A stretch of DNA of 64,000 nt from contig JAUHXS010000011.1 in NCBI GenBank assembly GCA_030426955.1, positions 1 to 64,000 on the forward strand, written 5' to 3'. Under the pieces are notes generated by a model that was not told the origin of the DNA, made no database searches, and was given only the letters and a program-made list of their open reading frames with translations. Source of the stretch: Bacteroidia bacterium. Lineage in GTDB: Bacteria > Bacteroidota > Bacteroidia > Chitinophagales > JAUHXS01. Shown in pieces: positions 17,755-36,617 of this stretch. How positions within the stretch are numbered: the stretch's first letter is position 1; each line of letters begins with the position of its first letter. Both the position numbers and the translations under genes were made by a program.

Positions 17755-18174
17755 GTGAAGAATAATAGAATAGTTGGTTTCGCTTGCGGAGTATTTGATC
17801 TTTTTCATGCTGGGCATGTACTAATGTTGAAAGAATGCAAAGAACACTGTGACTATTTAATTATTGGACTAAATAAGGCGGAAAATATAGATCACACAAT
17901 TAACCCAAACAAAAAATCTCCAATCTTTACTTTTGAAGAAAGGAAATTGATTCTAGAAAATTGTTTGTTGGTAGATGAAGTTATTGGATACAACTCAGAA
18001 GCTGAACTTGTTAATATTCTTAAAGCTTTTAAAATAGATATTCGTTTTCTAGGGGATGACTATCGAGGAAGAGAAATAACGGGTGAAGGTCTAGTACCAA
18101 AAGTATATTATACTGACCGGTCACATGGGTTGAGTACTTCACTTTATAGAGATAGAATTCATTCTCAAAAATGA
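17755..18174 (+). CDS. Cytidylyltransferase-family nucleotidyltransferase, TagD / HldE C-domain-like
   Basis: A 139-residue single domain with the HxGH signature (GVFDLFHAGHVLML) and, near the end, YTDRSHGLSTSLYRDRI, which matches the (R/K)-x-x-G-(I/L)-S-(T/S) motif of this family. It is the size of glycerol-3-phosphate cytidylyltransferase (TagD) and of the second HldE domain. Placed after a kinase and an isomerase, it likely activates that sugar phosphate with CTP or ATP. Start is GTG, 16 bases after the isomerase stop; ATGA overlap with the next gene. Confidence 0.8.
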   Translation: MKNNRIVGFACGVFDLFHAGHVLMLKECKEHCDYLIIGLNKAENIDHTINPNKKSPIFTFEERKLILENCLLVDEVIGYNSEAELVNILKAFKIDIRFLGDDYRGREITGEGLVPKVYYTDRSHGLSTSLYRDRIHSQK

Positions 18175-19256
18175 TGAACTGTAAAATATACATTACAGAT
18201 GAAGGATTTGGCCCCATTGTACGTCAAAATGCTATTATTGAGGAGCTAAGAGCTATAAATCCAAAGATTGACTTTGTTTTACAACTACAAACTCATCAAG
18301 AGCAAGCATCACGAATTATTCGTAATGTTGAAATAATAGCAAAGCATAACCTTATAAAATGGCATAAAAAATCAAATGGTTCGCCAGATTTAGAATCAAT
18401 AACAAGTTATTATAAAGATTATGAAAAGAGATCAATTGATTATATTAAAACTGAGTTAAATAAATTTGGTAAACAAGACTTTTTAATCTCTGATTTTGTA
18501 TATGAAGCCTTTGAAATTGGACGTCTAAATAAAATTCCTACATTCGGAATAGCCCATTTTACCTGGGATTGGTTTTTAGGTTCGATGCAACCAAAGCCAA
18601 TAGAAAAAAAGCTAGAGAAATACTTCGTCGATTTAGTGGAAAACTCAGAAAGACTTTACTTTCCTCCTTTTACCCCTAAAGGAATTCTCAAAAAGTATAA
18701 ACACAAAATAAAAGAGGTGCCGTTGATTGTTCGTGAAAATGTCAACCATAAAGCACACTTTGGAATAGATCAATACAAAGTACTAATTATTGATAGTGGT
18801 GCAGGCGTTTTACATAAAACAATGCAACGATCGATTGAGCAATTATCAAAAATGAAAGATTTTCACTTTTTTGTATCAAATAAAATAAAAGGTGAGGCAG
18901 AAAATATAACAAAGATACCCGAAACTGATCTTTTTGTAGATTATATTCAAGATATGGATTTAGTGATTGGTAGGGCCGGTTTTAATACAATTTCTGAGTG
19001 TATTGCTTTAAGAACACCCATGCTTTTGCTTGGAGAAGCCATGAATCCAGAAATGACTGAAAATATTGATAATTTAAAAGAATCTGGATTGGGTGCTTTT
19101 ATACCTTTAGATAAATTTAGCAATGACTTAGCAAACTTTCTTCCTCACTTTATAGATACAGGTTATGAGCAATTACTTAAGAATATGAAAGAGCATTCTT
19201 TTGAATGTAATGGCGCTCAGGTAATTGCTAAAGATATACTAAATATAGTAGCATGA
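18171..19256 (+). CDS. GT-B-type glycosyltransferase (MurG/GT28-like C-terminal half)
   Basis: A 361-residue protein. It starts with IYITDEGFGPIVRQNAIIEEL, a glycine-bearing loop typical of GT-B N-domains, and carries the donor-binding signature DLVIGRAGFNTISECIALRTPMLLLGEAMNPEM near residues 260-295, as in MurG and related GT28 enzymes. No membrane helix is visible. It probably adds one sugar to the lipid-linked chain on the cytoplasmic side. It follows the cytidylyltransferase with coupled start and overlaps the NeuA-like gene by four bases, so it may use that activated sugar; that is inference. Confidence 0.65.
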   Translation: MMNCKIYITDEGFGPIVRQNAIIEELRAINPKIDFVLQLQTHQEQASRIIRNVEIIAKHNLIKWHKKSNGSPDLESITSYYKDYEKRSIDYIKTELNKFGKQDFLISDFVYEAFEIGRLNKIPTFGIAHFTWDWFLGSMQPKPIEKKLEKYFVDLVENSERLYFPPFTPKGILKKYKHKIKEVPLIVRENVNHKAHFGIDQYKVLIIDSGAGVLHKTMQRSIEQLSKMKDFHFFVSNKIKGEAENITKIPETDLFVDYIQDMDLVIGRAGFNTISECIALRTPMLLLGEAMNPEMTENIDNLKESGLGAFIPLDKFSNDLANFLPHFIDTGYEQLLKNMKEHSFECNGAQVIAKDILNIVA

Positions 19257-19804
19257 AAAAGATAGTGGCAATAATACCTGCAAGGGGAGGGTCGAAAAGA
19301 TTGGAGAATAAAAATATATATCCTTTGAATGGTAAGCCTTTGATTGCCTATACTATTGAGCAATGCAAGCTATCTAAATATGTTGAAGAGACTTATGTAA
19401 GCTCAGACTCTGATGAAATTCTAAATGTTGCAAAGGAGCTTGGAGTCATCCCGTTGAAGCGATCTTCAAAAAATTCAGATGATAAAACACCTAAAATCAT
19501 AGCAATAAGAGAAGCCTATGAGCAGTTGTCGTTTGAACCAGAAATTATTGTGATACCTCAAGCAAATTCACCTGAAATTCACGTTCAAGATATAGATGCT
19601 GGTTTTAAGTTATTATTAGAAAATAATTTATGGGAAGTAATGTCTGCAGATACTAATGGAATACAAAATGCTGCTTTTAGAATTGTTACGAAGCAAGCAC
19701 TATTTAATGACTTTCTTAGCGCACATTGCGGGTTTATTACTACAAGCTGTTTAGATGTACACACAATTGATGATATTAAGGAGTTGGAAAAAAGACTGAG
19801 ATAA
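19253..19804 (+). CDS. Short acylneuraminate cytidylyltransferase-like protein (NeuA family)
   Basis: A 183-residue protein with the CTP-binding motif AIIPARGGSKRLENKNI, then VYPLNGKPLIAYTIEQ-type helix, YVSSDSDEIL and the PQANSPE strand that replaces the usual LQPTSPLR. CMP-sialate synthases are about 220-230 residues, so some 40 residues are missing from the middle and end. The C-terminal DVHTIDDIKELEKRL still matches the family end. It may activate a nonulosonic acid to the CMP form. The only NeuB-like gene lies 11 kb downstream. Confidence 0.7.
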   Translation: MKKIVAIIPARGGSKRLENKNIYPLNGKPLIAYTIEQCKLSKYVEETYVSSDSDEILNVAKELGVIPLKRSSKNSDDKTPKIIAIREAYEQLSFEPEIIVIPQANSPEIHVQDIDAGFKLLLENNLWEVMSADTNGIQNAAFRIVTKQALFNDFLSAHCGFITTSCLDVHTIDDIKELEKRLR

Positions 19805-19806
19805 AT

Positions 19807-21624
19807 ATGTGTGGAATAGCTGGACATTTCGGACAAATTCCTCCTACTAGAGAAGAAATTATCAATACGATAAATGCAATGAAGAACAGGGGACCTGATT
19901 ATCAGGACTTTTGTTCGATGCAAAATGAGACAAGCTCTGTTACATTAATTCATTCCAGACTTTCAATTATAGATTTAGATCCGAGAGCAAATCAACCATT
20001 TGAAAGAGATGGATGTATTGTAGTATTTAATGGGGAGATATATAACTATATTGAACTTCGAGAAGAGTTGAAGAAAGAAGGAATTGTGTTCAAGACGGAC
20101 TCAGATACGGAGGTACTGATTGAATATTATTTAAAATATGGTGAGCGCTGCGTTGATTACTTTGAAGGAATGTGGAGTTTTGCCTTATATGATAAGAGGA
20201 AGCAAACTTTAATGCTATCTCGCGATCGTTTTGGAGAGAAACCTTTATATTATTTGAAGAACAGTAAAGGGTTTTACTTTGCCTCTGAGGTAAAGGCTAT
20301 ACAAAAACTTTTTGGAAAGAAGTTGACTATTAATGAAAAACATCTTTATAGATATATTGTAAATGGACATAAGTCCCTTTACAAAACAGATGAAACATTT
20401 TTCGATGAAATTAAGGAGGTACCATTTGCAACAAATATTATTCTTACCAATGATGATCAGCAAGAATATACTTACTGGACTCCTGAGTATACTCCAAAAA
20501 ATATTTCTGAAAAAGAAGCCATAGATGGCATTAGGCATTATTTATCAGAAAGTGTTAAACTAAGGCTAAGGTCAGATGTACCATTAGCATTTTGCTTGAG
20601 TGGCGGTGTAGATTCTGCAAGTTTAGTTTCTATAGCGACCAAAATATTGGGATATGATGTCACTGCATTCTCAATTATTGACAGCGACGAAAGGTATGAT
20701 GAATATGATAATATAGAGGCAACAGTGTTGGATACCCAGTGCAAAAATTATAAAATCAAACTAGACCCCAAGGCAAATAATATTGAAAGATTAGAGTCTT
20801 TGATAGAATATCACGATGCACCCGTAGCAACAATTAGCTATTTTGTGCATTCGATGCTTTCAGAGACAATTGCAAAGGAAGGCTTTAAGATATCTATATC
20901 AGGAACTGCCGCAGATGAAATTTTTACTGGGTATTATGATCATTTTAATCTACATTTATATGAGGTTAAAGGTCACCCTGATTACGAGAAGTTTCTTTCT
21001 GACTGGAAAAAGTATCCAGCTAAATTTGTCAGGCATCCTTATTTCAAAAAGCCAGACTTATACTTTAATGATCCCAATATTCGAGATCACATATACTTGA
21101 ATAACAATGAATTTTCTAGTTACTTGAAGACGGACTTCAAAGAAAGCTTTACTGAGACAAGGTATTCAGACTCCTTACTAAGAAATAGAATGCTTAATGA
21201 GCTTTTTCATGAGGTAGTTCGGGTTATCTTACATGAGGATGATTTGAATTCAATGAAGTATTCTTTGGAGAATCGGAGCCCTTTCTTAGATAGAAACTTG
21301 TTTGAGTTTGTATATTCTATTCCTTCTGAATATTTGGTAAAAGAAGGCTATGCAAAATATTTATTAAGAGCTTCTATGGAAGGAGTGTTAAATGATAAAG
21401 TTAGGCTGGCGAGAGAGAAGAAGGGTTTTAATGCATCAATAAACTCAATTATCGATTTTAACGATAAAAAACACATTGAATATATATTAGACGAATCAAG
21501 GATATTTGAATTCATAGATAAGGGAAAAATTGAAAATCTTCTGAGACAAAAACAGTATTCTAATAGCTTCAAGAAGTTTTTGTTTAACTTTATTTGTACC
21601 AAAATATTTCTCGAACAACAATAA
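19807..21624 (+). CDS. Asparagine synthase-like glutamine amidotransferase
   Basis: A 605-residue protein with N-terminal nucleophile MCGIAGHFG (Cys2), RLSIIDLD, VVFNGEIYN and SDTEVL of the glutaminase domain. The synthetase domain has the PPi loop CLSGGVDSASL (about 262-272) and SGTAADEIFTGYYDH. All key motifs are intact. In glycan clusters such proteins (for example WbpS) are thought to convert a uronic acid carboxyl to an amide, rather than make asparagine. Given its place, that role is likely here. The next gene's ATG overlaps its stop by one base. Confidence 0.88.
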   Translation: MCGIAGHFGQIPPTREEIINTINAMKNRGPDYQDFCSMQNETSSVTLIHSRLSIIDLDPRANQPFERDGCIVVFNGEIYNYIELREELKKEGIVFKTDSDTEVLIEYYLKYGERCVDYFEGMWSFALYDKRKQTLMLSRDRFGEKPLYYLKNSKGFYFASEVKAIQKLFGKKLTINEKHLYRYIVNGHKSLYKTDETFFDEIKEVPFATNIILTNDDQQEYTYWTPEYTPKNISEKEAIDGIRHYLSESVKLRLRSDVPLAFCLSGGVDSASLVSIATKILGYDVTAFSIIDSDERYDEYDNIEATVLDTQCKNYKIKLDPKANNIERLESLIEYHDAPVATISYFVHSMLSETIAKEGFKISISGTAADEIFTGYYDHFNLHLYEVKGHPDYEKFLSDWKKYPAKFVRHPYFKKPDLYFNDPNIRDHIYLNNNEFSSYLKTDFKESFTETRYSDSLLRNRMLNELFHEVVRVILHEDDLNSMKYSLENRSPFLDRNLFEFVYSIPSEYLVKEGYAKYLLRASMEGVLNDKVRLAREKKGFNASINSIIDFNDKKHIEYILDESRIFEFIDKGKIENLLRQKQYSNSFKKFLFNFICTKIFLEQQ

Positions 21625-23357
21625 TGAAGGGTTTCTCCTATACGTTTTATTTTATCTTAGGCATATTGCTAATTATGCGCTTTGTTTATCTCGATCAAGA
21701 CGCACCTTCTTATTTTATAAGTGGAGTTTGTCAAGAAGATGAGGCGTATTATTCAAATGGAGCATTGAGTTTTATATACAGCGATCACGATCCAGAAATC
21801 GAGATGGAACATGGGAACAAGTTATACTCTCTAGGAATATTTAGGAATGCAATCTCATTAATCTCTTTTAAACTTTTTGGCCTTAACTATTGGGGTTTAA
21901 GGTTACCAGCTGTTATGTTCTCTATTGTTATAATATTACTATTTCTGGATATTGGAAGAAAATTAAAAATTCCAACTTGGACTAACTGGCTATTAATGCT
22001 TGTGATTAGTACAGATTACTATTATCTATTGTTTAGTAGGTTTCAAACTCCTCAAATCTATTCCTTGTTTATACTCACCTTAATAATTTGGTTTTTTCTT
22101 ACCAAAGGGGTTGAAGACAAAGCAAAGCTCTTACTTCTCGGATGCCTTTCGCTATCATCAGTAATAATGATATATCTGTTTAACTTATTTGCATTTATCT
22201 CTATCTCTATATTTGTATTAATAATATCGGTAAGAAGAAGATCTTGGACACCTGTTATTTTTTATACATTAGGTTCGATGATTTCAGTATTTGTTTTTAT
22301 AATCCTTATTTATGCTTCTGGATCATCAATACAAGAAATGTATCATACTTTGGCTTTCAGTGGTAATATGGAAAAAATAGAATCAGGAATGACTGCTAGC
22401 TCCTTTCTCGCGTCATTACCTTCAAAATTTATAGGTTCGATTTCTCAAATATTAAATACAAATTTTTTTAGATTTAATTTATCCGAACTATGGCTATACT
22501 TGATGTGTTTGCCTCAGCTTCTTTATAGCTGTATTTATAAAAAAGATAATGTGGCGTTATTTTTATTACTGTTTATCCCATTTATTTTTCTTCAGAATAT
22601 TTTTATCAATAGCTATCCTTTTAAAAAGTTAATTGTCTTATATCCGATAATAATCGTGTCTATCTTATATTGCTTTTCGCAATTAAAGCATGATGTTTTC
22701 AGTTTTTTAAAGACAAAAATGCCATGGGTAGTAACTTGGGGACTTGTTTGTTTTGGTATTTGCTTATATAACTTTAAGGTAAATAAAAGCTATATGTATT
22801 GGTCTGGTTTTGATTATGGCTATTATTCAAACACTGATATAGTGTTTGATGTACTAAATATATGTATTAACATATTTATCGTGTTTTTCATGATTTATAT
22901 AATTAGAGGAGAAAATAAAGTTTACAAGTTTAGATATTTATTTTTTTTATTAATTGTGCCTCAAGTTTATTTATCAGTCAAAACTATAGGTTTTGAGAAG
23001 CGTTTTGATTTGAGAGATACCTTGATCAGTTTGAGGTCAGATTTTGAAAATGCCGTTATCGTATCTGGATGGGGGCATGCCTATCAATTTTATAACGAGG
23101 CTAAACCAATTTTAAATCATTATGCTTTTCGGAATAACGAAACTAAGTCTAAAGAACTTGAGCGAAAATTTTTTGATGAACTAGAATCGCATAAACGTTT
23201 TAAGATGGTTAAGTTTTTCCACCATGAGGAAAATTATAAAAATCTTAAAAAGGGAGATATCTTTGAAGAGACAGCAAATTATAAATTAGAGGTTTTTGAT
23301 ATAAAAGAACTAACATTTTATAACATACTTATTTTAAGTTGCGTTGATGTTAAATAA
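21624..23357 (+). CDS. GT-C membrane glycosyltransferase, GT39/ArnT-like
   Basis: A 577-residue polytopic protein with about ten to twelve helices and a soluble C-terminal part. The first periplasmic loop has GVCQEDEAYY, the acidic pair expected for the catalytic site of PMT/ArnT-type enzymes, and a following YWGLRLPAVMFS. These enzymes use a polyprenyl-phosphate sugar as donor on the periplasmic side. The next gene is a DPM1-like enzyme that could make that donor. The ATG at 21624 is preferred over a start 30 bases earlier because it couples to the asparagine synthase stop (TAATG). Confidence 0.75.
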   Translation: MKGFSYTFYFILGILLIMRFVYLDQDAPSYFISGVCQEDEAYYSNGALSFIYSDHDPEIEMEHGNKLYSLGIFRNAISLISFKLFGLNYWGLRLPAVMFSIVIILLFLDIGRKLKIPTWTNWLLMLVISTDYYYLLFSRFQTPQIYSLFILTLIIWFFLTKGVEDKAKLLLLGCLSLSSVIMIYLFNLFAFISISIFVLIISVRRRSWTPVIFYTLGSMISVFVFIILIYASGSSIQEMYHTLAFSGNMEKIESGMTASSFLASLPSKFIGSISQILNTNFFRFNLSELWLYLMCLPQLLYSCIYKKDNVALFLLLFIPFIFLQNIFINSYPFKKLIVLYPIIIVSILYCFSQLKHDVFSFLKTKMPWVVTWGLVCFGICLYNFKVNKSYMYWSGFDYGYYSNTDIVFDVLNICINIFIVFFMIYIIRGENKVYKFRYLFFLLIVPQVYLSVKTIGFEKRFDLRDTLISLRSDFENAVIVSGWGHAYQFYNEAKPILNHYAFRNNETKSKELERKFFDELESHKRFKMVKFFHHEENYKNLKKGDIFEETANYKLEVFDIKELTFYNILILSCVDVK

Positions 23358-23363
23358 TTATCT

Positions 23364-24287
23364 ATGGTTGAACTATCAATAATCAGTCCTGTCTATAGAG
23401 CGGAGCAAATGGTTGATTTATTGGTTGACAAAATACTTATTGCTGCGCAAAAAGTAACAGATGCATTTGAGATCATTTTAGTAGAAGATGGTAGCCCCGA
23501 CAATTCATGGGAGAAAATCGAGGAGAATTGCAAAAAAGATAAGCGTATAAAAGGAGTTAAGCTAAGTAGAAACTTTGGTCAACATTATGCCATTACGGCA
23601 GGTCTTAATATAGCATCTGGTAAATTAATTTCAATATTGGATTGTGATCTCCAGGACGATCCTGAAGATATAGCTCGGCTTATCAATAAACATAAAGAGG
23701 GATATGATATTATTTTTACTCGAAGAAAAAAAAGGAGACATTCTTTTTTAAAGCTATTGACGGCTAGAATTTATAATGCAGTTTTTTCGTTATTTGCAGA
23801 TTCAAAATATGATATCAATGCTGGGAGCCTAGTACTATTTACCCATAAGGTTAAAGAGGAATTTTTAAAAGTTACAGATCAGGATAGATTGTATATTCAA
23901 ATCCTAAAATGGGTTGGGTTCAAAAGTGCATATCTAGAGGTTGAACATAATGAAAGACACAGTGGGGAATCTTCATATACCATTTCACAATTATTTAAAA
24001 TAGCCGTTCAAGGGTGGACATTTCATTCAGATAAACTGTTAAGATTGTCAATTTATATAGGTTTTTCTTTTGCTATGATTGCTTTTTTCTATGGTGGATA
24101 TATTATACTGAGGTATTTTTTACATGCTTATAAGTCAGGATGGGCTAGCACAGTAGTTCTGATTTTATTTTCTAGCGGATTGCTTCAGATCAGCATTGGT
24201 ATTGCAGGAATTTACATAGGAAAAATTTTTAAGCAATCTAAAAACAGACCTCTTTTTATTATTGAAAAAAGAGTTAATGATGATTAA
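23364..24287 (+). CDS. GT2 polyprenyl-phosphate glycosyltransferase, DPM1/GtrB-like
   Basis: A 307-residue protein with GT2 motifs SIISPVYRAE, LVEDGSPDNSW, LSRNFGQHYAITAGL and the metal-binding LDCDLQDDPED. HSGESSYTISQLFKIA leads into two C-terminal membrane helices (about 225-250 and 265-290), the GtrB/ArnC layout. It probably transfers a sugar from a nucleotide donor to undecaprenyl phosphate, feeding the GT-C enzyme encoded just before it. The pairing is inference from adjacency. Confidence 0.85.
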   Translation: MVELSIISPVYRAEQMVDLLVDKILIAAQKVTDAFEIILVEDGSPDNSWEKIEENCKKDKRIKGVKLSRNFGQHYAITAGLNIASGKLISILDCDLQDDPEDIARLINKHKEGYDIIFTRRKKRRHSFLKLLTARIYNAVFSLFADSKYDINAGSLVLFTHKVKEEFLKVTDQDRLYIQILKWVGFKSAYLEVEHNERHSGESSYTISQLFKIAVQGWTFHSDKLLRLSIYIGFSFAMIAFFYGGYIILRYFLHAYKSGWASTVVLILFSSGLLQISIGIAGIYIGKIFKQSKNRPLFIIEKRVNDD

Positions 24288-24975
24288 AAATGTAATAATA
24301 ACGCAATCCAACTATATTCCGTGGAAAGGCTATTTTGATGCTATAAATATTGCCGATGAATTTATTGTATATGATGACATGCAGTATACAAGGCGAGATT
24401 GGCGTAATAGAAATAAAATAAAAACGGCAAATGGCCTGCAATGGCTAACTATTCCTGTTGAAGTAAAAGGTAAATACACACAAAAAATTAATGAAACTAG
24501 AGTTGCGGATGCCAATTGGGGAGAAAAACATTGGAAATCAATAGAAATGTCTTACTCGAAGGCTCCTTTCTTTAGTGAGACTGCAGAAAAACTTGAGCCA
24601 CTTTTTATGCATCCAGTATCTGATATGCTTACAGAAATTAATAAATCTCTCCTTGAAAGGATTTGCTCAATTTTAAGTATAAAGACTAGAATACGCGATT
24701 CAAGAGATTTTAAACTGACCGAGGGTAAAACTGAGCGATTGGTTGACCTATGTTTGCAAGTAGGTGCCAATAACTATTACTCAGGACCAGCAGCTAAAAG
24801 TTACATGGATGAATCTTTGTTTACTAAAAAGCAAATTGAAGTACATTACTTTGATTATTCAAACTATCCTGAATATAAGCAACTAAATGGGGACTTTACG
24901 CATGAAGTTTCTATATTAGATCTTCTATTTAATGAAGGTCCTAATGCTAATGGTTTTATGAAAAGCTTTCAATAA
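24280..24975 (+). CDS. WbqC family protein
   Basis: About 232 residues with the family hallmark ITQSNYIPWKGYFDAIN at the N-terminus, then FIVYDDMQYTRRDWRNRNKIKT and LTIPVEVKGKY. WbqC proteins occur in O-antigen and other glycan clusters; their reaction is not firmly known, though links to aminoacyl or acyl modification of amino sugars have been suggested. The start could be 24277 or 24280; both ATGs lie inside the 3' end of the previous gene. It sits next to a NeuD/PglD-like acyltransferase, which may act on the same sugar. Confidence 0.8.
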   Translation: MIKNVIITQSNYIPWKGYFDAINIADEFIVYDDMQYTRRDWRNRNKIKTANGLQWLTIPVEVKGKYTQKINETRVADANWGEKHWKSIEMSYSKAPFFSETAEKLEPLFMHPVSDMLTEINKSLLERICSILSIKTRIRDSRDFKLTEGKTERLVDLCLQVGANNYYSGPAAKSYMDESLFTKKQIEVHYFDYSNYPEYKQLNGDFTHEVSILDLLFNEGPNANGFMKSFQ

Positions 24976-24976
24976 T

Positions 24977-25645
24977 ATGTCAAATAAAAAGTTAATCATT
25001 ATAGGAAATACATCCAATGCGAAGCTTGCTCAATATTATTTTGAAAAAGATAGCGAGTATGATGTAGTAGCCTTTTCAGTTAATGAGGAATTTATTACTG
25101 ACAAAGAATTCATGGGACTTCCAGTAGTTGCATTTGAAAGGCTTGAGACAGACTTTCCTGCTGATCAGTTTGACGTCTTTGTAGCAGTGGGTTATAATAA
25201 GATGAATAAAATAAGAGAAAAGTTATATAATGAACTTAAAGAGAAAGGATATTGCTTACCTAACTATATTAGTTCAAAATGTAGTTTTTTAACAGAAGAA
25301 TCTATAGGTGATAATAATTTGATCCTGGAGGATAATACCATTCAACCATTTGTTAAGATTGGCAGTAATAATGTTTTTTGGAGTGGTAATCACATAGGAC
25401 ACGATGGAGTTATAAAAGATCACTGTTTTATCACATCTCACGTGGTTGTATCTGGATTTGTAACAATAGAGTCAAATTGTTTTATTGGTGTTAATGCAAC
25501 TATACGAGATGCTGTTACAATAGCAAGAGAAACGCTTATTGCTGCAGGGGCTATTATAATGAAAGACACAGAAGAAAAAGGAGTATATCTGCCAGCTAGA
25601 AGTACGCTGTTTAATAAAAAAAGTGATGAGATTACAATTTCATAA
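24977..25645 (+). CDS. NeuD/PglD-like sugar O- or N-acyltransferase
   Basis: A 222-residue protein. The N-terminal third is a Rossmann-like domain (KLIIIGNTSNAKLAQYYF), and the rest is a left-handed beta helix of hexapeptide repeats (for example IGDNNLILEDNTIQPFVKIGSNN and ESNCFIGVNATIRDAVTIA). GHDGVIKDHCFITSHVVVSG carries the histidines expected for catalysis. PglD acetylates 4-amino sugars and NeuD acetylates sialic acid. WecE, which makes a 4-amino sugar, is encoded 4 kb downstream, so either role fits. Confidence 0.8.
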   Translation: MSNKKLIIIGNTSNAKLAQYYFEKDSEYDVVAFSVNEEFITDKEFMGLPVVAFERLETDFPADQFDVFVAVGYNKMNKIREKLYNELKEKGYCLPNYISSKCSFLTEESIGDNNLILEDNTIQPFVKIGSNNVFWSGNHIGHDGVIKDHCFITSHVVVSGFVTIESNCFIGVNATIRDAVTIARETLIAAGAIIMKDTEEKGVYLPARSTLFNKKSDEITIS

Positions 25646-25654
25646 AGTTATATT

Positions 25655-26548
25655 ATGGCATGGAAAAAGTTAGGAAAAATTTTTGAGCCTAATAATAATG
25701 CGTATTGGCTTTTTTCTCATGCTTCCAATCCATTTGCGGAGCTTATAGAGGGAAGTAGGTACAAAATATATTTTAGTAGTCGAGATAATCAGAATAGAGC
25801 ATATATTGGATATCTCATAGTTGATATGAAAGACCCCTTTCAGATTATTGAAGTGGCATCTGATCCGCTTATTGATTTAGGAGAGATAGGTGCCTTTGAT
25901 GATAATGGAATGTCTATGGCATGCACTATGCAAGTAAAGGATAAGAAATATTTGTACTATTTAGGATGGAATCTGGCAAATAATGTTCCTTTTAAGAATA
26001 GTATTGGTGTTATTCAAGCATCGGATAAGGGTGGGTTTGAACGTTTCTCAAAAGGACCAATGATGGATAGAGATTTAATAGATCCTTTTTCACTTTCATA
26101 TCCATATGTAATCTTTGATGAAGGTGTATATAAAATGTGGTATGGTTCACATAAGAAATGGGGTAAAACAACTAGTGATATGATTCATTGTCTGAAATAT
26201 GCTGAATCAAATGATGGTATTCATTGGAATAGAACTGATAAGGTTTGTATAGATACGGATGAGAGAGATTATGCGTTCTCAAGACCATGTATCATAAAAC
26301 ATAATGACATATATAAAATGTGGTACTCTTTTAGAGGGGGAAAATACAGAATCGGGTATGCTGAATCAAAAGATGGCACAGAGTGGCATAGAAAGGATCA
26401 AGAGGTTGGAATTACGGTCTCACAAAATGGTTGGGATAGTGAGATGATCTGCTATCCTCATGTTTTTAAATTTGATGAAAAATATTACATGCTTTATAAT
26501 GGAAATAGTTACGGAAAGACCGGGTTTGGAATAGCTGTTTTGCAATAA
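25655..26548 (+). CDS. Five-bladed beta-propeller, glycoside hydrolase 43/32/130-like protein
   Basis: A 297-residue protein without a signal peptide. It shows repeated propeller-blade signatures: YKIYFSSRDNQNRAYIGY, YLYYLGW, YKMWYGSHK, CLKYAESNDGIHWNR, YKMWYSFRGGKYRIGYAESKDGTEWHR and YYMLYNGNSYGKTGFGIAV. These are typical of GH32/43/68 and GH130 folds. It should be cytoplasmic, so it is not a simple polysaccharide-degrading enzyme. Possible roles are a phosphorylase, a transglycosidase or a non-catalytic sugar-binding protein. Catalytic residues cannot be fixed by eye. Confidence 0.6.
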   Translation: MAWKKLGKIFEPNNNAYWLFSHASNPFAELIEGSRYKIYFSSRDNQNRAYIGYLIVDMKDPFQIIEVASDPLIDLGEIGAFDDNGMSMACTMQVKDKKYLYYLGWNLANNVPFKNSIGVIQASDKGGFERFSKGPMMDRDLIDPFSLSYPYVIFDEGVYKMWYGSHKKWGKTTSDMIHCLKYAESNDGIHWNRTDKVCIDTDERDYAFSRPCIIKHNDIYKMWYSFRGGKYRIGYAESKDGTEWHRKDQEVGITVSQNGWDSEMICYPHVFKFDEKYYMLYNGNSYGKTGFGIAVLQ

Positions 26549-26557
26549 TAACCTCTA

Positions 26558-27679
26558 GTGAAAAAAGTCTATTTTCCTAATATCAATGGGTTGCGATTTA
26601 TAGCAGCATTTTTAGTTATAGTCCACCATACAGAAAATATGAAATCTTTGCTGGGGATGTCCAACTATGCAGGTGTTCCGTTCATTCATATTATTGGAAA
26701 ACTTGGTGTAATACTTTTTTTTGTACTTAGTGGCTTTTTAATCACCTACTTGTTATTGATAGAAAAGAGAGACACACATGCTGTATCTATTAAAAATTTC
26801 TACATTAGGAGGATTCTTAGAATTTGGCCACTGTATTATCTGATAATCATATTGGGATTATTCGTTTATCCAAACTTTAGTTTTTTTGACTTGCCAATCC
26901 AAGGTGCACAAAGTGGTACCTTAAAGTACATTCTTTTTTTTCTGATATTTCCTAATCTGGCACTCGCTATGTCAATTAAAGTACCTTTCATTTCTCTTAC
27001 ATGGTCGATTGGAGTAGAGGAGCAATTTTATATCATTTGGCCTAATGTATTAAAAAGATTTAAACCAAAACTTCAACTCTTCTTTGTTGTCTTAGTTGTT
27101 TACTTAGCGATAAAAATGATGTTATACTTTTTTATGAGTTATAATAATGGTAATCTTCTTATTGAAATAGTGTACAATTTTTGGAATTCTTTTGTGATAA
27201 GTGCTATGGCAATTGGAGCAATATTTGCTTATTTAGGTTTTAAAGATAGGGATGCAATAACTGATTTTTTATTCAAAAAACATGTTCAGTTAGGAGCATA
27301 TATTATAGTACTTATGCTTTTTGCTACTGGTTACGAATTTCCTCTTTTACATTATGAATGCTACTCTATTCTTTTTGGTGTAATTATTCTTAATTTAGCT
27401 TGTAATCCGTCATCTATTTTAAAGTTGGAATTTAAAATCCTTAACTATTTAGGTAAAATTTCTTATGGTTTATATATGTTTCATCCCATTGCAATATTCT
27501 TAATTCTAAAGTTACTTGTTAAGAATAATTTAGTAGTTAACTATGTAGCCATTTTAATATTTATAATAGCCTTAACTTCCTTTTTAGCAGCACTTTCATA
27601 TCATATCTACGAAGAGCGGTTTATTAAGGCTAAAAAGAAATTTTCTCAAGTACTCAGTGGCGAAAATGTAAACAAATGA
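26558..27679 (+). CDS. Acyltransferase-3 family membrane O-acyltransferase (second copy)
   Basis: A 373-residue polytopic protein with GLRFIAAFLVIVHHTEN (conserved R and HH), LGVILFFVLSGFLITYLLL, FYIRRILRIWPLYYL, SLTWSIGVEEQFYIIWP and ISYGLYMFHPIAIF. It is the same family as the gene at 13556 but clearly divergent, so it probably acts on a different sugar. Start codon GTG. It overlaps the sulfotransferase gene by four bases (ATGA). Confidence 0.88.
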   Translation: MKKVYFPNINGLRFIAAFLVIVHHTENMKSLLGMSNYAGVPFIHIIGKLGVILFFVLSGFLITYLLLIEKRDTHAVSIKNFYIRRILRIWPLYYLIIILGLFVYPNFSFFDLPIQGAQSGTLKYILFFLIFPNLALAMSIKVPFISLTWSIGVEEQFYIIWPNVLKRFKPKLQLFFVVLVVYLAIKMMLYFFMSYNNGNLLIEIVYNFWNSFVISAMAIGAIFAYLGFKDRDAITDFLFKKHVQLGAYIIVLMLFATGYEFPLLHYECYSILFGVIILNLACNPSSILKLEFKILNYLGKISYGLYMFHPIAIFLILKLLVKNNLVVNYVAILIFIIALTSFLAALSYHIYEERFIKAKKKFSQVLSGENVNK

Positions 27680-28563
27680 AAGATCAGGGACAAAACATAC
27701 ATGTTTTATTAGGAATGCCCCGTGCAGGTACAACCTTTTTATATCATAACTTACAATTACATCCGCAAATTTTTGTCCCTTTTAGAAGAAAAACAAATTA
27801 TTTTGCAATTCACTATGAGAAACCTTCTCAGTGGTATTATGAACATTTTAAAGACTTAAAGAGCAATCAGGTTGGACTTGATACTGATACCCTTAGTTTT
27901 CTTAACAATGATAGTCTAGAACGTTTCAAGAATAACTATAATGGACAATCCAAGGTGATTTTAGTAGTAAGGGATCCAGCATTTTGGAGTATGTCTTTAT
28001 ATAAACAAATAAAATCTTTTACCTTCAATATGCCTTCTTTTGAGAGTTATGTAAAAGAAGGGTACACATTAATTGAAGACGATTCCAAAATTCCGTATCA
28101 TTTTGAGCCAGGCGATATAAAAAATAGGATTGAAGATGTTATGAATTTTTTTGGAGATAATATATTGATTTTAAATTTCGACTTAATAAAAAAAGATCCT
28201 ACAAAGTTTTTAAATGCAATAGAGAACTTTTTAGGTATTGATTGTTTTTTTAAATCAGATAATTTTAAAAATGAACGTATTAATGCAGGAAATAGAAAAA
28301 GTTATAAGTTGATAAATAGTTTACTTCGAAAAAAATGGCTTATTGAGCTTTTACAAAACTATGTTCCTCGCAATTTTGTGCTTAAGCTTAGGAATACTTA
28401 TGATAAAAAAAGTATTAATAACAATTCTAAATCAGTAACACATTACTCTCAAGAGGATAGGCAGTTAGCAGAAGAATATTATAAATCTGATATTGAATAT
28501 GTGAAACAGCTATTTGTTAAGTCTGACATTATAGTTAAAGACGAAAAGTCATTTATTAAATGA
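27676..28563 (+). CDS. Sulfotransferase domain protein
   Basis: A 295-residue protein with the PAPS 5'-phosphosulfate loop HVLLGMPRAGTTFLYHNL (residues about 10-25) and the 3'-phosphate site KVILVVRDPAFWSMSLYKQI (about 93-112). FDLIKKDPTKFLNAIENFLGID matches the usual C-terminal region. It likely moves sulfate from PAPS to a sugar hydroxyl of the glycan. It overlaps genes on both sides by four bases, so it belongs to the cluster transcript. Confidence 0.8.
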   Translation: MKDQGQNIHVLLGMPRAGTTFLYHNLQLHPQIFVPFRRKTNYFAIHYEKPSQWYYEHFKDLKSNQVGLDTDTLSFLNNDSLERFKNNYNGQSKVILVVRDPAFWSMSLYKQIKSFTFNMPSFESYVKEGYTLIEDDSKIPYHFEPGDIKNRIEDVMNFFGDNILILNFDLIKKDPTKFLNAIENFLGIDCFFKSDNFKNERINAGNRKSYKLINSLLRKKWLIELLQNYVPRNFVLKLRNTYDKKSINNNSKSVTHYSQEDRQLAEEYYKSDIEYVKQLFVKSDIIVKDEKSFIK

Positions 28564-29558
28564 CTTTTCCGAAAGTTACTTTAAGAAAGGTATTCTTTAA
28601 CATATTTAAGATACTCCTATTTATTGTATTGATTTATTGGGTTGTTCGCGATATTGATGTTGAATTATTTCTAAATAAGCTTGGATCTTCCCATCTTGGA
28701 ATTCTTGTATTAGCTTTTGCCTTAAATATTTCAAGAAATTTTATAGGAGCTTTTAGAATCAAAATATTAATAGAAAGTGAAACAATATCAACTTGGCAAT
28801 TAACAAAAGATTATCTAGGAGGGGCTTTTTTTAATAATCTTCTGCCCAGTGCAATAGGAGGAGATTTCTACAGAGGTTATAAGTTAAAAAAGTATGGTCT
28901 TAAGAATAAGGAGCTGCTAAGTGCATTAATAACAGAGCGTTTCTTAGGAGTAGTAAGCCTATGTATTTTATCTTTGTCTTATTTGATCTTTTTTAAACAA
29001 TTATGGGATATTTCAATCATTAGAATGTTTACCGTATTAAGTTTTGGATTGCTCCTTATTACTCTATTTTTGTTTTATCCTAAGATTAGACATATTATTG
29101 TCAATATACTTAATGCTCTTAAGTTGAGCTTTTTGCTGAAATTAAGAGACTTACTTTTAGCTATCTTTGACTTCTTTTCAAAGAAACGTCTTTTTTTATC
29201 GGGATTATTGCTATCCATCTTATATCAGATTGTTGGAGTTATTTCTATCTTATTTATAGGGCTATCTATTGAGGCTGATATCTCACTTGTTTATTACTTA
29301 ACCTTTATGCCCATTATATGGCTTGTTACTATGGTTCCAATATCTATTAATGGAATGGGGATAAGAGAGCAAATGCATATTATTCTTTTTAGTAAAATAG
29401 GGATTTCCGATGAAACTGCAGTAGCCATTTCCTTTTTGTTCTTTGTACAAATACTTTTACAGGGTATTCTTGGAGCAGTTATTGTTTTTATTTTTAATAA
29501 AAATGATTTTAACTTTATGAAGTTGAAGCATGAAAATAAGCTAAATAAAACTATTTAA
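28560..29558 (+). CDS. Lysylphosphatidylglycerol synthetase-type (UPF0104) transmembrane protein
   Basis: A 332-residue membrane protein with about eight helices. GGAFFNNLLPSAIGGDFYRGYKLKKYG and ALITERFLGVVSL match the flippase-like domain of MprF and the UPF0104/AglD family. C-terminal MVPISINGMGIREQMHI is another conserved block. There is no aminoacyl-transfer domain. Members in glycan clusters may flip lipid-linked intermediates or aid glycosyl transfer; the exact role here is unknown. Confidence 0.75.
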   Translation: MTFPKVTLRKVFFNIFKILLFIVLIYWVVRDIDVELFLNKLGSSHLGILVLAFALNISRNFIGAFRIKILIESETISTWQLTKDYLGGAFFNNLLPSAIGGDFYRGYKLKKYGLKNKELLSALITERFLGVVSLCILSLSYLIFFKQLWDISIIRMFTVLSFGLLLITLFLFYPKIRHIIVNILNALKLSFLLKLRDLLLAIFDFFSKKRLFLSGLLLSILYQIVGVISILFIGLSIEADISLVYYLTFMPIIWLVTMVPISINGMGIREQMHIILFSKIGISDETAVAISFLFFVQILLQGILGAVIVFIFNKNDFNFMKLKHENKLNKTI

Positions 29559-29560
29559 AC

Positions 29561-30694
29561 TTGTATATCTCATTTAATCGACCGTATTTATGTGGCAAGG
29601 AATTTACCTATATACAAGATGCAATTGAGAGAGGAAAAATTTCTGGTAATGGACATTATACAAAACTCTGCCATCAATATTTTACTAATCACTACAATTT
29701 AAAAAAATGTTTGCTGACCTCAAGTTGCACGGACGCGCTTGAGATGTCTGCAATCCTATTGAATATTCAACCTGGTGATGAGGTCATTATGCCCTCATAT
29801 ACCTTTGTGAGTACGGCAAATGCATTTATATTGCGTGGGGCAAAGATCATATTTGCAGATAGTATGCAGAGCATGCCTAACATGGATCTTAATTCTTTAG
29901 AAGATTTAATTACTCCTAAAACAAAAGCTATTGTGGTTGTGCATTATGCAGGTATTGCTAATGACATGGATAGAATTATGAAAATTGCCTTAGATAACAA
30001 TATATATGTTATAGAAGATGCTGCTCAATGCGTTGATTCGTTCTATAAAAACAAGGCGCTTGGGTCAATTGGTCATTTGGGAGCATTTTCCTTTCATGAA
30101 ACTAAAAATATTATTTGTGGAGAGGGCGGGTTATTATCGATCAATGATGACCAATTTACAGATAGGTCTGAAGTTATTTGGGAGAAGGGAACAAATAGAG
30201 CAGCATTTTTCAGAGGAGAAGTTGATAAATATGGTTGGGTGGATCTAGGCTCTTCATTCTTACCTTCTGAAGTAGTATCAGCTTTTTTATATGCTCAATT
30301 AGAAAATTTAAAAGCTATTCAGAAGAAAAGAATTGAATTGTGGGACAAGTATTATGAAGTTCTTGAAAGATTAGAAGCGAGAGAATTAGCCGTTCTTCCG
30401 AGAATCCCTGAATATGCTACAAACAATGCACATATGTTTTATCTTATAACCCCAACTGGAGCGGTTAGAGATAGCCTTATTGAGCATTTGAAAAAAAATA
30501 ATGTTAACGCTGTTTTCCATTACCAAAGTTTACATAAAAGCCCTTACTTTAATGATAAGCATGATGGTCGAGTTTTATCCAGTGCCGATCACTTTTCAGA
30601 TTGCTTGATAAGGTTGCCATTATATTTTGACTTAACGTTAGAACAAACAACTTATATTGCTAATTCCATACTAGATTTTTATAAATTAAAATAA
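29561..30694 (+). CDS. wecE: dTDP-4-amino-4,6-dideoxygalactose transaminase
   Basis: A 377-residue PLP enzyme of the DegT/DnrJ/EryC1/StrS family. Its match to E. coli WecE (RffA) is strong from memory: FNRPYLCGKEFTYIQDAI, LTSSCTDALEMSAILLNIQ, VHYAGIANDMD, EDAAQCV, FSFHETKN with the PLP lysine Lys182, and WEKGTNRAAFFRGEVDKYGW. It makes dTDP-Fuc4N from dTDP-4-keto-6-deoxyglucose with glutamate. The RmlA and RmlB steps needed before it are not in the window. Start is TTG, two bases after the previous stop. Confidence 0.9.
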   Translation: MYISFNRPYLCGKEFTYIQDAIERGKISGNGHYTKLCHQYFTNHYNLKKCLLTSSCTDALEMSAILLNIQPGDEVIMPSYTFVSTANAFILRGAKIIFADSMQSMPNMDLNSLEDLITPKTKAIVVVHYAGIANDMDRIMKIALDNNIYVIEDAAQCVDSFYKNKALGSIGHLGAFSFHETKNIICGEGGLLSINDDQFTDRSEVIWEKGTNRAAFFRGEVDKYGWVDLGSSFLPSEVVSAFLYAQLENLKAIQKKRIELWDKYYEVLERLEARELAVLPRIPEYATNNAHMFYLITPTGAVRDSLIEHLKKNNVNAVFHYQSLHKSPYFNDKHDGRVLSSADHFSDCLIRLPLYFDLTLEQTTYIANSILDFYKLK

Positions 30695-30699
30695 ATATT

Positions 30700-31389
30700 A
30701 TGTTCGTAATATCAGAAATATCACCACAATTCGGCGGAAAAGTCGAAGTCGCAGAGCAAATGATTTTGCAATCTAAAATGGCTGGTGCAGACGCGATTAA
30801 AGTACAACTATATACCGAAACCCAGTTTGGTGAAGAAAGGGCATATCTCTCCATGCCTTTTGAGCAATTAGAAAGATTAAAGAAGTTTGCAGATAACCTT
30901 AATATTCCTTTGTTTGCTACACCATTTACAATGGATCGATTGGATTGGTGTTTGAAATTAAAATTGCCATATCTAAAAGTTGCAGCAAGAATGCATAGAG
31001 AAATGCCAGATTTAGTGCAAGCTATAATGGACCAAAACATCCCCACCTTTGTGTCAATTCCTTCAGATCAGGATCCTAATGAAGTTGAAAAATTTGATCA
31101 TGCTACCTACCTGTATTGTGTAGTAAAATATCCAACCAGGGTAGATGAGTTCAGTATGCCAGATTTTAACAATTCGTGTTTTGAAGGTATCTCCGATCAT
31201 ACACTTGGAAATTCAGGTGCATTATATGCTTCAGCACATGGAGCAAAATATTTAGAAAAGCATTTTACACTGCGTCATTCACATCAGTTTGTAACAGAAC
31301 AAGCACATCTTGGTTCTATGGATACAAGAGATTTGGCATTAATAAAAAATACAGCTAAAGAATTTGAAACGATAAGGAGCGTGCTTTAA
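30700..31389 (+). CDS. NeuB-like nonulosonic acid synthase lacking the SAF domain
   Basis: A 229-residue TIM-barrel protein of the N-acetylneuraminate synthase family: FVISEISPQFGGKVEVAEQMI, AGADAIKVQLYTETQF, IPLFATPFTMDRLDW, YLKVAARMH, ISDHTLGN and AKYLEKHFTLRH. The family condenses PEP with a hexosamine. Usual members have about 340 residues with a C-terminal antifreeze-like SAF domain that helps bind the sugar. Here the protein stops right after the barrel, and the next gene starts two bases later and is unrelated. No NeuC/LegG-type epimerase was found. Function may therefore differ from classical sialic acid synthesis. Confidence 0.75.
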   Translation: MFVISEISPQFGGKVEVAEQMILQSKMAGADAIKVQLYTETQFGEERAYLSMPFEQLERLKKFADNLNIPLFATPFTMDRLDWCLKLKLPYLKVAARMHREMPDLVQAIMDQNIPTFVSIPSDQDPNEVEKFDHATYLYCVVKYPTRVDEFSMPDFNNSCFEGISDHTLGNSGALYASAHGAKYLEKHFTLRHSHQFVTEQAHLGSMDTRDLALIKNTAKEFETIRSVL

Positions 31390-31390: not shown

Positions 31391-32722
31391 TTGGCAACTA
31401 CAAATTTCTTTGATTCTTACTTTTTCTTCCATAAGCTATTGAATGGTAGAGATCTTACACTACAAGAAAGGCTTGCTAGGGAGTCTTTATTGAACTTTCC
31501 TACCTATAGACTTCCAGAATCGTCCAAACATGACAAGCTGATTGGCTTTAAAGTGCTTTATAGAACTACGAAAAGAATATTGAAAAGTTCTAATGCTTGT
31601 CGAAAGTTCGGGAAAAACAGTTGCTGTATATTGGATGGGGGTTTTAGGTTTTATGAAGTTGATACAGAGTATATATCAAAAGTTGCCCCTCAATATTCAG
31701 GGTGGTTTATTGCTAAGGAAGATATTTTAGGAAATGGATCCATGATGGTAAGAATAACTAATATGCTTCTCACCATAGCTTTTTATTCTCCATTAGCATT
31801 GAAGTGTTTTTTTAACTCAAAAAGGAAAAATATAGCTTTAATTATATCTGAAGCTCTGGAGGCTAACCTGCTATTAAGGGTATTGAAAAAGCTGGAAATA
31901 AACTTAGTTGTGGATTATTTAAACTATGAGAAAGACAGTAATGCACTATATCTGTATCTCCAAAAAAATGAAATTAAAGTCATTAAGTTTCCTTCACCTG
32001 GGCCTTTAATGACACACAATCGTATTTTACTTTCGGATGAACTTTCTTTAAGTGCTCACTATCAATTTGAAGAATATGAAAAGCTCAAAAATCAGTCAAT
32101 ACTCGTTGAAAAAGTGAATAAATGGCCACCGGAAAATGCAATGACCTACATTAATAAATACATAAATGAAGAGAAAAAAGCACCCCTTAATACATTAGGT
32201 TATTATTCTCACGGAAGTTGGCTTAGAAAAGAGGAAGGTCATTCAGATGACGGCCTAGACTTGTACAGTCAGGAAAAAAGATTACTATTAGACTTAAGTC
32301 AATTTTTACAAAAAAATAAGGAATATCAGTTGACTATATATTTACACCCAAAAGAAAAGAGAAAAGAACTTCAGCAAGAGATGGAATCATTTTATAAAAT
32401 ACAGTTGAAAGGAGTAAACTTTTCTTTGTTTAAAGACAATATAAAAACATCTGATGTTTTTAGTCAAGTAGATGTTGCTTTAGCTGCATTTTCAACAGTT
32501 ATCTATGAGCGGCTATTTTGCGGGTACAAAACTCTCATCGGTAATTATGGGAAAAGTGAGTTCCCAATTCCAGAAAGCACACTAAACAATATTTGTTTTG
32601 GTAACTTTACTGAATTGAGCGAGCAAGTAGAAAAAATCTCAAAGCTTGACAATGATGGCTTTTTTAAGAAGAATAAATTAGAAGGCTATAAATACGATAC
32701 ATATCCATTTTTTAAGAATTAA
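31391..32722 (+). CDS. Unknown glycan-cluster protein, candidate nonulosonate transferase
   Basis: A 443-residue protein, soluble apart from a hydrophobic patch around 118-140. The C-terminal half looks like a GT-B donor domain: LGYYSHGSWLRKEEGH, a DDG triplet at about 286-288, YLHPKE with HP at about 319, then VDVALAAFSTVIYERLFCGYK with Ser-Thr near 366, and a Gly-rich end. Acidic-acidic-Gly, HP and Ser/Thr motifs in that order are known from bacterial sialyl- and polysialyltransferases, but the DDG-HP spacing here is short. It sits two bases after the NeuB-like gene. I do not recognise the family with certainty. Start is TTG. Confidence 0.45.
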   Translation: MATTNFFDSYFFFHKLLNGRDLTLQERLARESLLNFPTYRLPESSKHDKLIGFKVLYRTTKRILKSSNACRKFGKNSCCILDGGFRFYEVDTEYISKVAPQYSGWFIAKEDILGNGSMMVRITNMLLTIAFYSPLALKCFFNSKRKNIALIISEALEANLLLRVLKKLEINLVVDYLNYEKDSNALYLYLQKNEIKVIKFPSPGPLMTHNRILLSDELSLSAHYQFEEYEKLKNQSILVEKVNKWPPENAMTYINKYINEEKKAPLNTLGYYSHGSWLRKEEGHSDDGLDLYSQEKRLLLDLSQFLQKNKEYQLTIYLHPKEKRKELQQEMESFYKIQLKGVNFSLFKDNIKTSDVFSQVDVALAAFSTVIYERLFCGYKTLIGNYGKSEFPIPESTLNNICFGNFTELSEQVEKISKLDNDGFFKKNKLEGYKYDTYPFFKN

Positions 32723-33337
32723 ATGATAACAATAGTTGATTATGGTCTGGGTAATCTAGCTTCGATCAAAAACATGATTAAGAAGGTAGGAGGAGAAGCT
32801 ACGATATCTTCAAACTTAGAAGAAATAGGTAATGCATCAAAGTTAATCTTACCTGGTGTTGGTGCTTTTAATAAAGGCATGGAGAATATAAGTAACATGG
32901 GGTTGCAGTCGATTTTGAATAAAAAAGTTCTAGAGGATCGGGTGCCAATACTGGGGATTTGTTTAGGAATGCAGCTCTTAACCAATTATAGCGAAGAGGG
33001 AGATGTTAAAGGTTTGGGTTGGATTGATGCAAAGACTGCAAGGTTTCGTCTGAGCTCCAAAATATTAAAGGTTCCGCATATGGGTTGGGCAGATATTTCT
33101 ATCAATCAAAAGCAGCACCCTATATTTTCCGGTCTTGAGGATACTATTAGATACTATTTTGTGCATTCGTACTATGTTAGGTGTAAATCAGAAAAAAATG
33201 TATTGTGTACTGCAAAGCATGAAATAGACTTTGCTTGTGGAATTGTAAAAGATAATATTATTGGTTTTCAGTTCCATCCGGAAAAAAGCCATAAGTTTGG
33301 AATGACTCTTTTAAAAAATTATATTGATTATTGTTAA
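32723..33337 (+). CDS. hisH: HisH-type glutamine amidotransferase, glycan-cluster paralogue
   Basis: A 204-residue class I glutaminase: VDYGLGNLASIKNMI, LPGVGAF, nucleophile Cys80 in LGICLGMQLL, HMGW, YFVHSYYV and the His/Glu pair in FQFHPEKS. It directly precedes a HisF-like gene, but no other histidine gene is near. In Pseudomonas, Campylobacter and Legionella such HisH2/HisF2 pairs give ammonia to an N-acetyl sugar amidotransferase, which converts an N-acetyl to an acetamidino group. That partner is encoded at 45750. A role in histidine synthesis is less likely. Confidence 0.88.
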   Translation: MITIVDYGLGNLASIKNMIKKVGGEATISSNLEEIGNASKLILPGVGAFNKGMENISNMGLQSILNKKVLEDRVPILGICLGMQLLTNYSEEGDVKGLGWIDAKTARFRLSSKILKVPHMGWADISINQKQHPIFSGLEDTIRYYFVHSYYVRCKSEKNVLCTAKHEIDFACGIVKDNIIGFQFHPEKSHKFGMTLLKNYIDYC

Positions 33338-34114
33338 ATGAGAAGAGTTAGGATTATTCCAGTATTAACAGTTGACGGAAGCAAACTAGTCAAAACTGTA
33401 AAGTTCAAAAAACCTAACTATTTAGGAGACCCAATCAATGCTATAAAGATATTTAATGATAAGGAAGTTGATGAGGTTGTTGTGCTAGATATTACAGCTT
33501 CAAAAAATAATAAGGATATTAATTTTCAATTAGTTGAGGAGATGGCTGGAGAGTGCTTTATGCCATTAGCTTATGGTGGCGGAGTAAAGACTTTTGATCA
33601 TATTCAAAAACTTTTCTCCATTGGCGTTGAAAAGGTAATACTTAATTCTGTTTTAGAGACAAACATAGATTTAATTACTAAAGTAGCCAATCACTATGGA
33701 GCTCAAAGCACCGTAGTTGCTTTAGATATTAAAAAAAATATTTGGGGTACTCCCAAAGTGCATTTTAGAAGTGGTAAAAAATCTAGTAATATAAAGCCCA
33801 TTGATTTTGCTCAAAAGGTTGAATCAGCAGGAGCAGGTGAAATATTAATTAATAATATAGATCGAGATGGGACTTTTAAAGGACTAGATATGGAGTTGAT
33901 TAACTCAATTGCTACTTCAGTCAATATTCCTGTGATAGCCTGCGGTGGTGCCCACTCTATTGAAAATATAAAAGATGGGATTGTTTGTGGAGGTGCTTCA
34001 GCGGTGGCAGCAGGAAGTTTATTTGCTTACAAAGCAAATAATACTGCATCTATTCTCATCAACTATCCAAGTCAGGAGGAGCTGCACAAAGAAGTATTTA
34101 AACATCTTAGTTAA
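33338..34114 (+). CDS. hisF: HisF2/AglZ-type acetamidino modification protein
   Basis: A 258-residue HisF-like TIM barrel. FKKPNYLGDPINAIKIFNDKEVDEVVVLDITAS and GECFMPLAYGGGVKT match the Pseudomonas HisF2 branch. The catalytic Asp11 of true HisF (CLDV) is replaced: the residue here is Thr11 in IPVLTVDG, one residue shorter in the loop. The second catalytic Asp (VVALDIKK) and NIDRDGT are kept. Loss of Asp11 argues against imidazole glycerol phosphate synthesis and for a role as ammonia channel for sugar amidination with HisH. It begins on the base after the HisH stop. Confidence 0.85.
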   Translation: MRRVRIIPVLTVDGSKLVKTVKFKKPNYLGDPINAIKIFNDKEVDEVVVLDITASKNNKDINFQLVEEMAGECFMPLAYGGGVKTFDHIQKLFSIGVEKVILNSVLETNIDLITKVANHYGAQSTVVALDIKKNIWGTPKVHFRSGKKSSNIKPIDFAQKVESAGAGEILINNIDRDGTFKGLDMELINSIATSVNIPVIACGGAHSIENIKDGIVCGGASAVAAGSLFAYKANNTASILINYPSQEELHKEVFKHLS

Positions 34115-36567: not shown

Positions 36568-36617
36568 TGCTTAACAGTACAACTTTATTATTATTAAAAA
36601 ATGTAACTTTACAAATC

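Follow-up and report, generated by a model that had tools for sequence, protein, structure and literature searches.

Two short genes in the window, the whole 64,000-nucleotide stretch of DNA that was analysed, are rather likely to encode the pair of committed enzymes in a distinct branch of ulosonic-acid (sialic-acid-like) biosynthesis, acting on an aldose that differs from the known ones. This reading comes from sequence comparison of a NeuB-like protein, here called sNeuB, and a NeuA-like protein, sNeuA. Sialic-acid-like sugars mark cell surfaces and play a part in biofilms, phage attachment and contact with hosts. Profiles now in use label the pair simply as NeuB and NeuA, so that many environmental genomes would be wrongly predicted to make sialic, legionaminic or pseudaminic acid. 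No account of such a pair, a short NeuB lacking SAF together with a short NeuA, was found in the literature, most subscription journals lying outside the coverage.

The locus and its operon

The features of the locus are:

9703..11493, + strand: ABC transporter near the module (Pfam ABC_tran, 100.9 bits)
18171..19256, + strand: GT28-like protein, a GT-B of the MJ1255/VC2487 type (Glyco_tran_28_C, 31.9 bits; TIGR00661, 57 bits, below cut-off)
19253..19804, + strand: sNeuA, putative armless cytidylyltransferase (N-terminal half of CTP_transf_3; alignment)
19807..21624, + strand: AsnB-type glutamine amidotransferase (TIGR01536, 388.8 bits, above cut-off; synteny)
30700..31389, + strand: sNeuB, predicted barrel-only NeuB-type PEP-condensing synthase (PF03102; AF2 model)
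31391..32722, + strand: GT-B protein with an invariant H-P motif, H319-P320 (NF046086 BFO_1060 glycosyltransferase, E 1.4e-7, below cut-off)
32723..34114, + strand: acetamidino-module pair of HisH and HisF2/AglZ type (TIGR01855, 229.8 bits; NF038364, 335 bits, above cut-off)
36567..39217, + strand: GFO/IDH oxidoreductase, hexapeptide acetyltransferase and DegT aminotransferase of diacetamido-uronate type (Pfam GFO_IDH_MocA, Hexapep)
45750..46898, + strand: WbuX-type N-acetyl sugar amidotransferase, the third acetamidino-module component (TIGR03573, with 299.6 bits above its cut-off)
46929..50592, + strand: three glycosyltransferase-like genes closing the conserved operon (order kept across loci)

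Both short genes are intact open reading frames, of 229 residues for sNeuB and 183 for sNeuA. The PF03102 match in sNeuB scores 81.7 bits (curated cut-off 22.1); there is no SAF domain and nothing after PF03102, and the next gene follows after 2 bp, too close for any SAF remnant to fit between. The passed cut-off and the PEP and metal residues described below assign sNeuB to the NeuB superfamily. The C-terminal SAF domain with Arg314, by which classical NeuB/PseI proteins are recognised, is absent from it, and its scores lie below the equivalog cut-offs: 73.9 of 399.65 bits (TIGR03569) and 89 of 340.25 bits (TIGR03586). sNeuA matches CTP_transf_3 with 87.9 bits over profile positions 1-118 of 217 only, and scores 97 bits against 205.7 required for PseF. 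The initial annotation had described a NeuB-like protein of 229 residues stopping after the TIM barrel without a SAF domain, and a shortened NeuA-like protein of 183 residues. The reading frames and domain matches, with the barrel model for sNeuB, confirmed both descriptions.

Gene order is conserved across genera. The compact operon (L046 and L081-L086, with small differences) runs GT28-sNeuA-AsnB-sNeuB-GT-B-HisH-HisF-WbuX-GFO-acetyltransferase-DegT-three GTs; a second form (L023, L024, L076-L079) runs GT28-sNeuA...sNeuB-GT-B-GT-GT-GT. The window carries the compact form plus about nine genes between AsnB and sNeuB that are absent from the compact operons. The common core of the two forms is therefore GT28, cytidylyltransferase, sNeuB and GT-B protein, and the recurrent GT28-sNeuA-(AsnB)-sNeuB-GT-B operon defines the predicted module. 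The start of sNeuA overlaps the end of the GT28 gene (19253 against 19256), and GT28 lies beside sNeuA or SpsF-like/dehydrogenase genes in almost all loci whose upstream sequence is long enough; it was not seen in L030 or L080. AsnB directly follows sNeuA in the window, L020, L046 and L081-L086. The GT-B gene comes directly after sNeuB in most loci, its place being taken in L028 and L029 by a TIGR04396 protein that scores above cut-off. In the compact operon the GT-B gene is followed by the HisH/HisF pair, the GFO, acetyltransferase and DegT genes share that operon in L046 and L081-L086, and the three closing glycosyltransferase genes keep their order in L023-L025, L046, L075-L079, L081 and L084-L086. 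An ABC gene is also found upstream in L020, L028 and L030.

AsnB, HisH/HisF/WbuX and GFO/acetyltransferase/DegT have established family roles in making amidated and acetamidino amino-uronates, and these neighbours point to such sugars in the same glycan. As the amidation genes are missing from the second operon form, they need not act on the product of sNeuB. The GT-B protein was modelled as a GT-B fold (AF2 pLDDT 90.6). The model resembles a wide range of GT-B enzymes (Z 13-15), among them the polysialyltransferase 5WC6, and points to no specific function; comparison of the GT-B and GT28 family profiles with PDB sequences gave no useful match. On the basis of its fold and sub-cut-off profile match, the GT-B protein is proposed as a candidate CMP-sugar transferase.

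A search of the rest of the genome, which is 97% complete, revealed no SAF domain (PF08666) anywhere. Neither of the findings named beforehand as arguing against a distinct pair was made: there is no stand-alone SAF gene, and the only other set is a NeuB of 289 residues on contig C11 (NeuB289), itself SAF-less, which adjoins a HAD phosphatase-like protein and a 235-residue NeuA. The remaining PF03102 match is a DAHP-synthase-like protein. The short lengths alone would favour decay, with sNeuB and sNeuA as remnants of a full-length NeuB/NeuA set; this is extremely improbable, as orthologue lengths are near-constant, dN/dS is about 0.02, catalytic residues are invariant, the genes are packed 2 bp apart and the genome has no SAF-bearing set. 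Decay or truncation was ruled out on the lengths, the dN/dS and the lack of SAF.

The window's contig has no Epimerase_2 gene; elsewhere in the genome there is a single full-length copy, on contig C5, and a weak match below cut-off on C11. There was no match to the PseG family (TIGR03590) at 1e-20 in the source genome. The lack of a NeuC/LegG partner says little, because PseI and SpsE pathways use a different (PseG/SpsG) hydrolase. The idea that GT28 fills the NeuC gap by acting like PseG found no support: it has no TIGR03590 match, the hhalign result was weak (17%), and in five of the eight GT28 proteins that span the G-x-G-H motif its His is replaced by Pro. GT28 could release the aldose from a nucleotide sugar by a non-PseG mechanism.

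Residues and folds of the short enzymes

Residue equivalences for sNeuB were taken from an alignment to N. meningitidis NeuB. The PEP and metal residues are invariant in all sNeuB rows (E6=E25, K34=K53, Q36=Q55, F76=F112, K93=K129, S165=S213, H167=H215, E186=E234, H188=H236); T74 (=T110) is replaced in a single row, by Ser in L030. Absent are the N-terminal pre-barrel stretch, the insert bearing Asn74 and the SAF domain with Arg314. The Asn184 position is occupied by V, L, M or A, and S132 and E134 have become Ala (A96) and Met (M98) in almost all members. A published list names 13 residues around the NmNeuB site (PMC6795526), and the ones lost from sNeuB are Asn74, Asn184, Phe288 and Arg314. 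The invariant residues new to sNeuB include Q10, K143 and H203. With the PEP and metal residues kept and most sugar-reading residues lost, sNeuB probably condenses PEP with a different aldose.

An AlphaFold (AF2) model of sNeuB (pLDDT 88, pTM 0.87) has eight strands in a complete (beta/alpha)8 barrel. The best structural match is the Leptospira borgpetersenii NeuB 6NCS (Z 28.0 over 225 aligned residues), also a SAF-less barrel; at 290 residues it is about 60 longer, shares 25% identity and has an N-terminal pre-barrel stretch that sNeuB lacks. NeuB (Z 26.7) and PseI (25.8) follow; these enzymes (8H2C, 1XUU) have the barrel and the PEP and metal residues in common with sNeuB, but also a SAF domain with Arg314, Asn74, Asn184 and S132/E134, none of which it possesses. 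Next are DAHP synthase and KDO8P synthase (Z 19-21), PEP-condensing enzymes that are likewise barrel-only, at 8-14% identity; in contrast to these, the shared sNeuB module has no phosphatase gene. The absence of SAF alone is therefore not new, being known from 6NCS and KDO8PS/DAHPS and seen in NeuB289.

In sNeuA, the CTP loop IPARGGSKRL..KNI, the QANSP motif with Gln103 (=Gln104) and Asp168 (=Asp209) are invariant. The CTP loop, Gln104, Asp209 and the globular core are common to NeuA and PseF, but sNeuA has no dimerisation domain and has His in place of Asp211. About 40 residues are missing relative to NeuA; the alignment shows an internal deletion and a retained C-terminal D-V-H-T motif. The V. 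cholerae CMAS has a globular part of 196 residues and a dimerisation domain at residues 137-176 (PMC6580227); the alignment indicates that the domain-swapped dimerisation arm is what sNeuA is missing. The second metal aspartate, Asp211, is His170 in all 17 of 17 rows. In the N. meningitidis enzyme the D211A change lowers kcat 15,000-fold, and the active site is completed by Lys142 from the other subunit (PMC2901514). The chemistry of sNeuA may therefore differ. The view that both proteins keep their core motifs is correct for most residues, but not for H170 in sNeuA nor for A96 and M98 in sNeuB. That both are reduced in the same way has a structural counterpart: by analogy with the known dimers, each short enzyme appears to have lost the part that reaches into its partner's active site.

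It is unlikely that the pair makes an ordinary acid of the Neu, Leg, Pse, KDN or Kdo type with minimised enzymes whose oligomer contacts replace the missing parts. The existence of other SAF-less NeuBs (6NCS, 290 residues; NeuB289) and the rich amino-sugar chemistry implied by the diacetamido-uronate and acetamidino neighbours would fit this explanation. It is opposed by the scores of sNeuB, far under the NeuB/PseI curated cut-offs, and of sNeuA, under that of PseF; by the deleted Asn74 loop and replaced Asn184; and by the lack of a NeuC-type gene on the window's contig and of PseG in the genome.

Distribution and selection

A scan of genome contigs found sNeuB orthologues in nine MAGs with the labels Flavobacteriales, Chitinophaga, Bacteroidota or Balneolaceae (66-82% identity), and more distant ones in an alphaproteobacterial MAG (46%) and a Chloroflexi MAG (44%). 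The carriers thus comprise Bacteroidota, one Balneolaceae MAG, one alphaproteobacterium and one Chloroflexota bacterium. In a sample of 395 Bacteroidota genomes, sNeuB occurs in two (G000, the source genome, and G339). Members of the family score 350-456 bits with the sNeuB profile, whereas ordinary NeuBs of this sample do not exceed 107. The same two genomes hold the only full-length sNeuA matches (>300 bits), other NeuAs matching the sNeuA profile only up to position ~140. Among 120 relatives of G339 there are 15 carriers of sNeuB; the same-family sample for the source consisted of that genome alone. In a phylogenetic tree sNeuB splits off with full support, on long branches, indicating a separate clade.

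With apparent duplicates, recognised by contigs of equal length, counted once (L023/L076, L025/L075, L026/L074), sNeuA is present in 21 of 24 distinct sNeuB genomes, sometimes on another contig, and in none of five relatives without sNeuB. The short pair, for which a search of other genomes had been suggested, thus recurs in distant bacteria. The distance matrices of the two proteins are correlated (r 0.86), which could come from mere operon co-inheritance. For close pairs dN/dS is 0.014-0.025 for sNeuB and 0.02-0.04 for sNeuA, and orthologue lengths are near-constant. Both genes are conserved, co-inherited and under purifying selection.

Proposed pathway and dehydrogenase loci

In the preferred reading, a distinct branch with a different aldose, sNeuB would condense the aldose with PEP to a 3-deoxy-2-ulosonic acid by NeuB-like, metal-dependent chemistry. 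sNeuA, or an SpsF-like protein, would convert this acid and CTP to the CMP-sugar, which the GT-B protein beside sNeuB, judging by its position and fold, may add to the growing surface glycan. The lost sugar-recognition parts (SAF with Arg314, Phe288 and the Asn74 loop; the NeuA arm) suggest that the aldose is neither ManNAc nor 6-deoxy-AltdiNAc; a candidate would be, for example, a simpler sugar that lacks the glycerol-like tail or the N-acyl group. The loci have no gene for a hydrolase, epimerase or phosphatase in common, so a free, generally available aldose would be the simplest substrate. The original suggestion of a distinct PEP-condensation product and CMP-sugar is strengthened by the conservation and co-inheritance of the pair and by the loss of sugar-reading parts, while two of its arguments, the loss of SAF and the absence of NeuC/LegG, carry less weight than was assumed. 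If the pair does make a new acid, it offers a testable route to an undescribed CMP-sugar, and the compact two-enzyme route could be a simple tool for making CMP-sugars.

The three of the 24 sNeuB genomes that lack sNeuA (L021, L027, L028) carry an SpsF-like cytidylyltransferase and a D-2-hydroxyacid dehydrogenase (D2HDH) beside sNeuB. The B. subtilis SpsG-SpsE-SpsF legionaminic pathway (PMC7439481) likewise combines a NeuB-type synthase, a cytidylyltransferase and a further sugar enzyme, and it is an SpsF-like gene that replaces sNeuA in these three loci. Unlike sNeuB, however, B. subtilis SpsE is full length, and GT28 here does not match the PseG/SpsG family.

Four further NeuBs of 228-231 residues are found in the phylum of the L029 genome; the family profile gives them 131-134 bits. 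Three of these loci (L104, L106, L107) encode, near the short NeuB (228 residues), a fusion protein of ~600 residues, CTP_transf_3 plus D-2-hydroxyacid dehydrogenase. Together with the D2HDH genes of L021, L027 and L028, this ties a dehydrogenase to short NeuBs in two phyla, and no other observation speaks as strongly against an ordinary nonulosonic acid as end product. It is possible, if tentative, that these enzymes make a new class of 3-deoxy-2-ulosonic acid with its own CMP-sugar, and that activation in the sister group is coupled, even fused, to a dehydrogenase, implying a redox-modified acid. We know of no described glycan containing such an acid.

A redox step on a 2-keto/2-hydroxy acid, by D2HDH and cytidylyltransferase in some members, might alternatively mean that the end compound is no classical CMP-ulosonate. 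The D2HDH beside the SpsF-like gene and sNeuB, and the fusions near the 228-residue NeuBs, are consistent with this. It is nonetheless quite improbable, as neither the window nor the sNeuA loci showed a D2HDH, and L021, L027 and L028 otherwise keep the GT28/sNeuB core, so their product could be the same. The dehydrogenase of the fusion is ~40% identical to the L021 D2HDH, and the CTP_transf_3 match of the L106 fusion lies just below cut-off. The short NeuBs of this second group retain the NHNG motif and Ser132.

Dehydrogenases and a putative cyclase beside short NeuBs

D-2-Hydroxyacid dehydrogenases lie near short NeuB-like proteins, either as a separate gene linked to a cytidylyltransferase (relatives with the barrel-only NeuB) or fused to it (second short-NeuB group):
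L021 7156-8631; L027 8265-9302; L028 7700-9244: separate dehydrogenase
L104 12191-13966; L106 1899-3725; L107 4473-6365: dehydrogenase-cytidylyltransferase fusion
L021 8624-9298; L022 7521-8252: putative cyclase (PF04199, arylformamidase-like)

Within this dehydrogenase family identity is about 40% across phyla, and the stretch PSTG[TS]NHI is conserved in most members. The putative cyclase is flanked by the barrel-only NeuB and the dehydrogenase or cytidylyltransferase gene.

Neighbouring genes in the window

29561-30694: gene immediately preceding that of the barrel-only NeuB, for a WecE-type aminotransferase (541 bits, which exceeds the cut-off)
16367-18174: PfkB-like kinase, SIS isomerase and RfaE2/GCT-like nucleotidyltransferase, upstream of the GT28-like protein

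Among the barrel-only NeuB loci, only L027 has a copy of this aminotransferase (60% identical) near NeuB. All three members of the trio missed the heptose-pathway cut-offs, and no such trio was seen at the other barrel-only NeuB loci.

A second SAF-less NeuB in the same genome

C11:66950-70677 (L047 6950-10677): set with a 289-residue SAF-less NeuB

Its partners are a KdsC-like HAD phosphatase, a methyltransferase-like protein, a 235-residue NeuA and a DapA/NAL-like protein; the set may represent a KDN-9-phosphate-type route. Another HisH/HisF pair lies close by.
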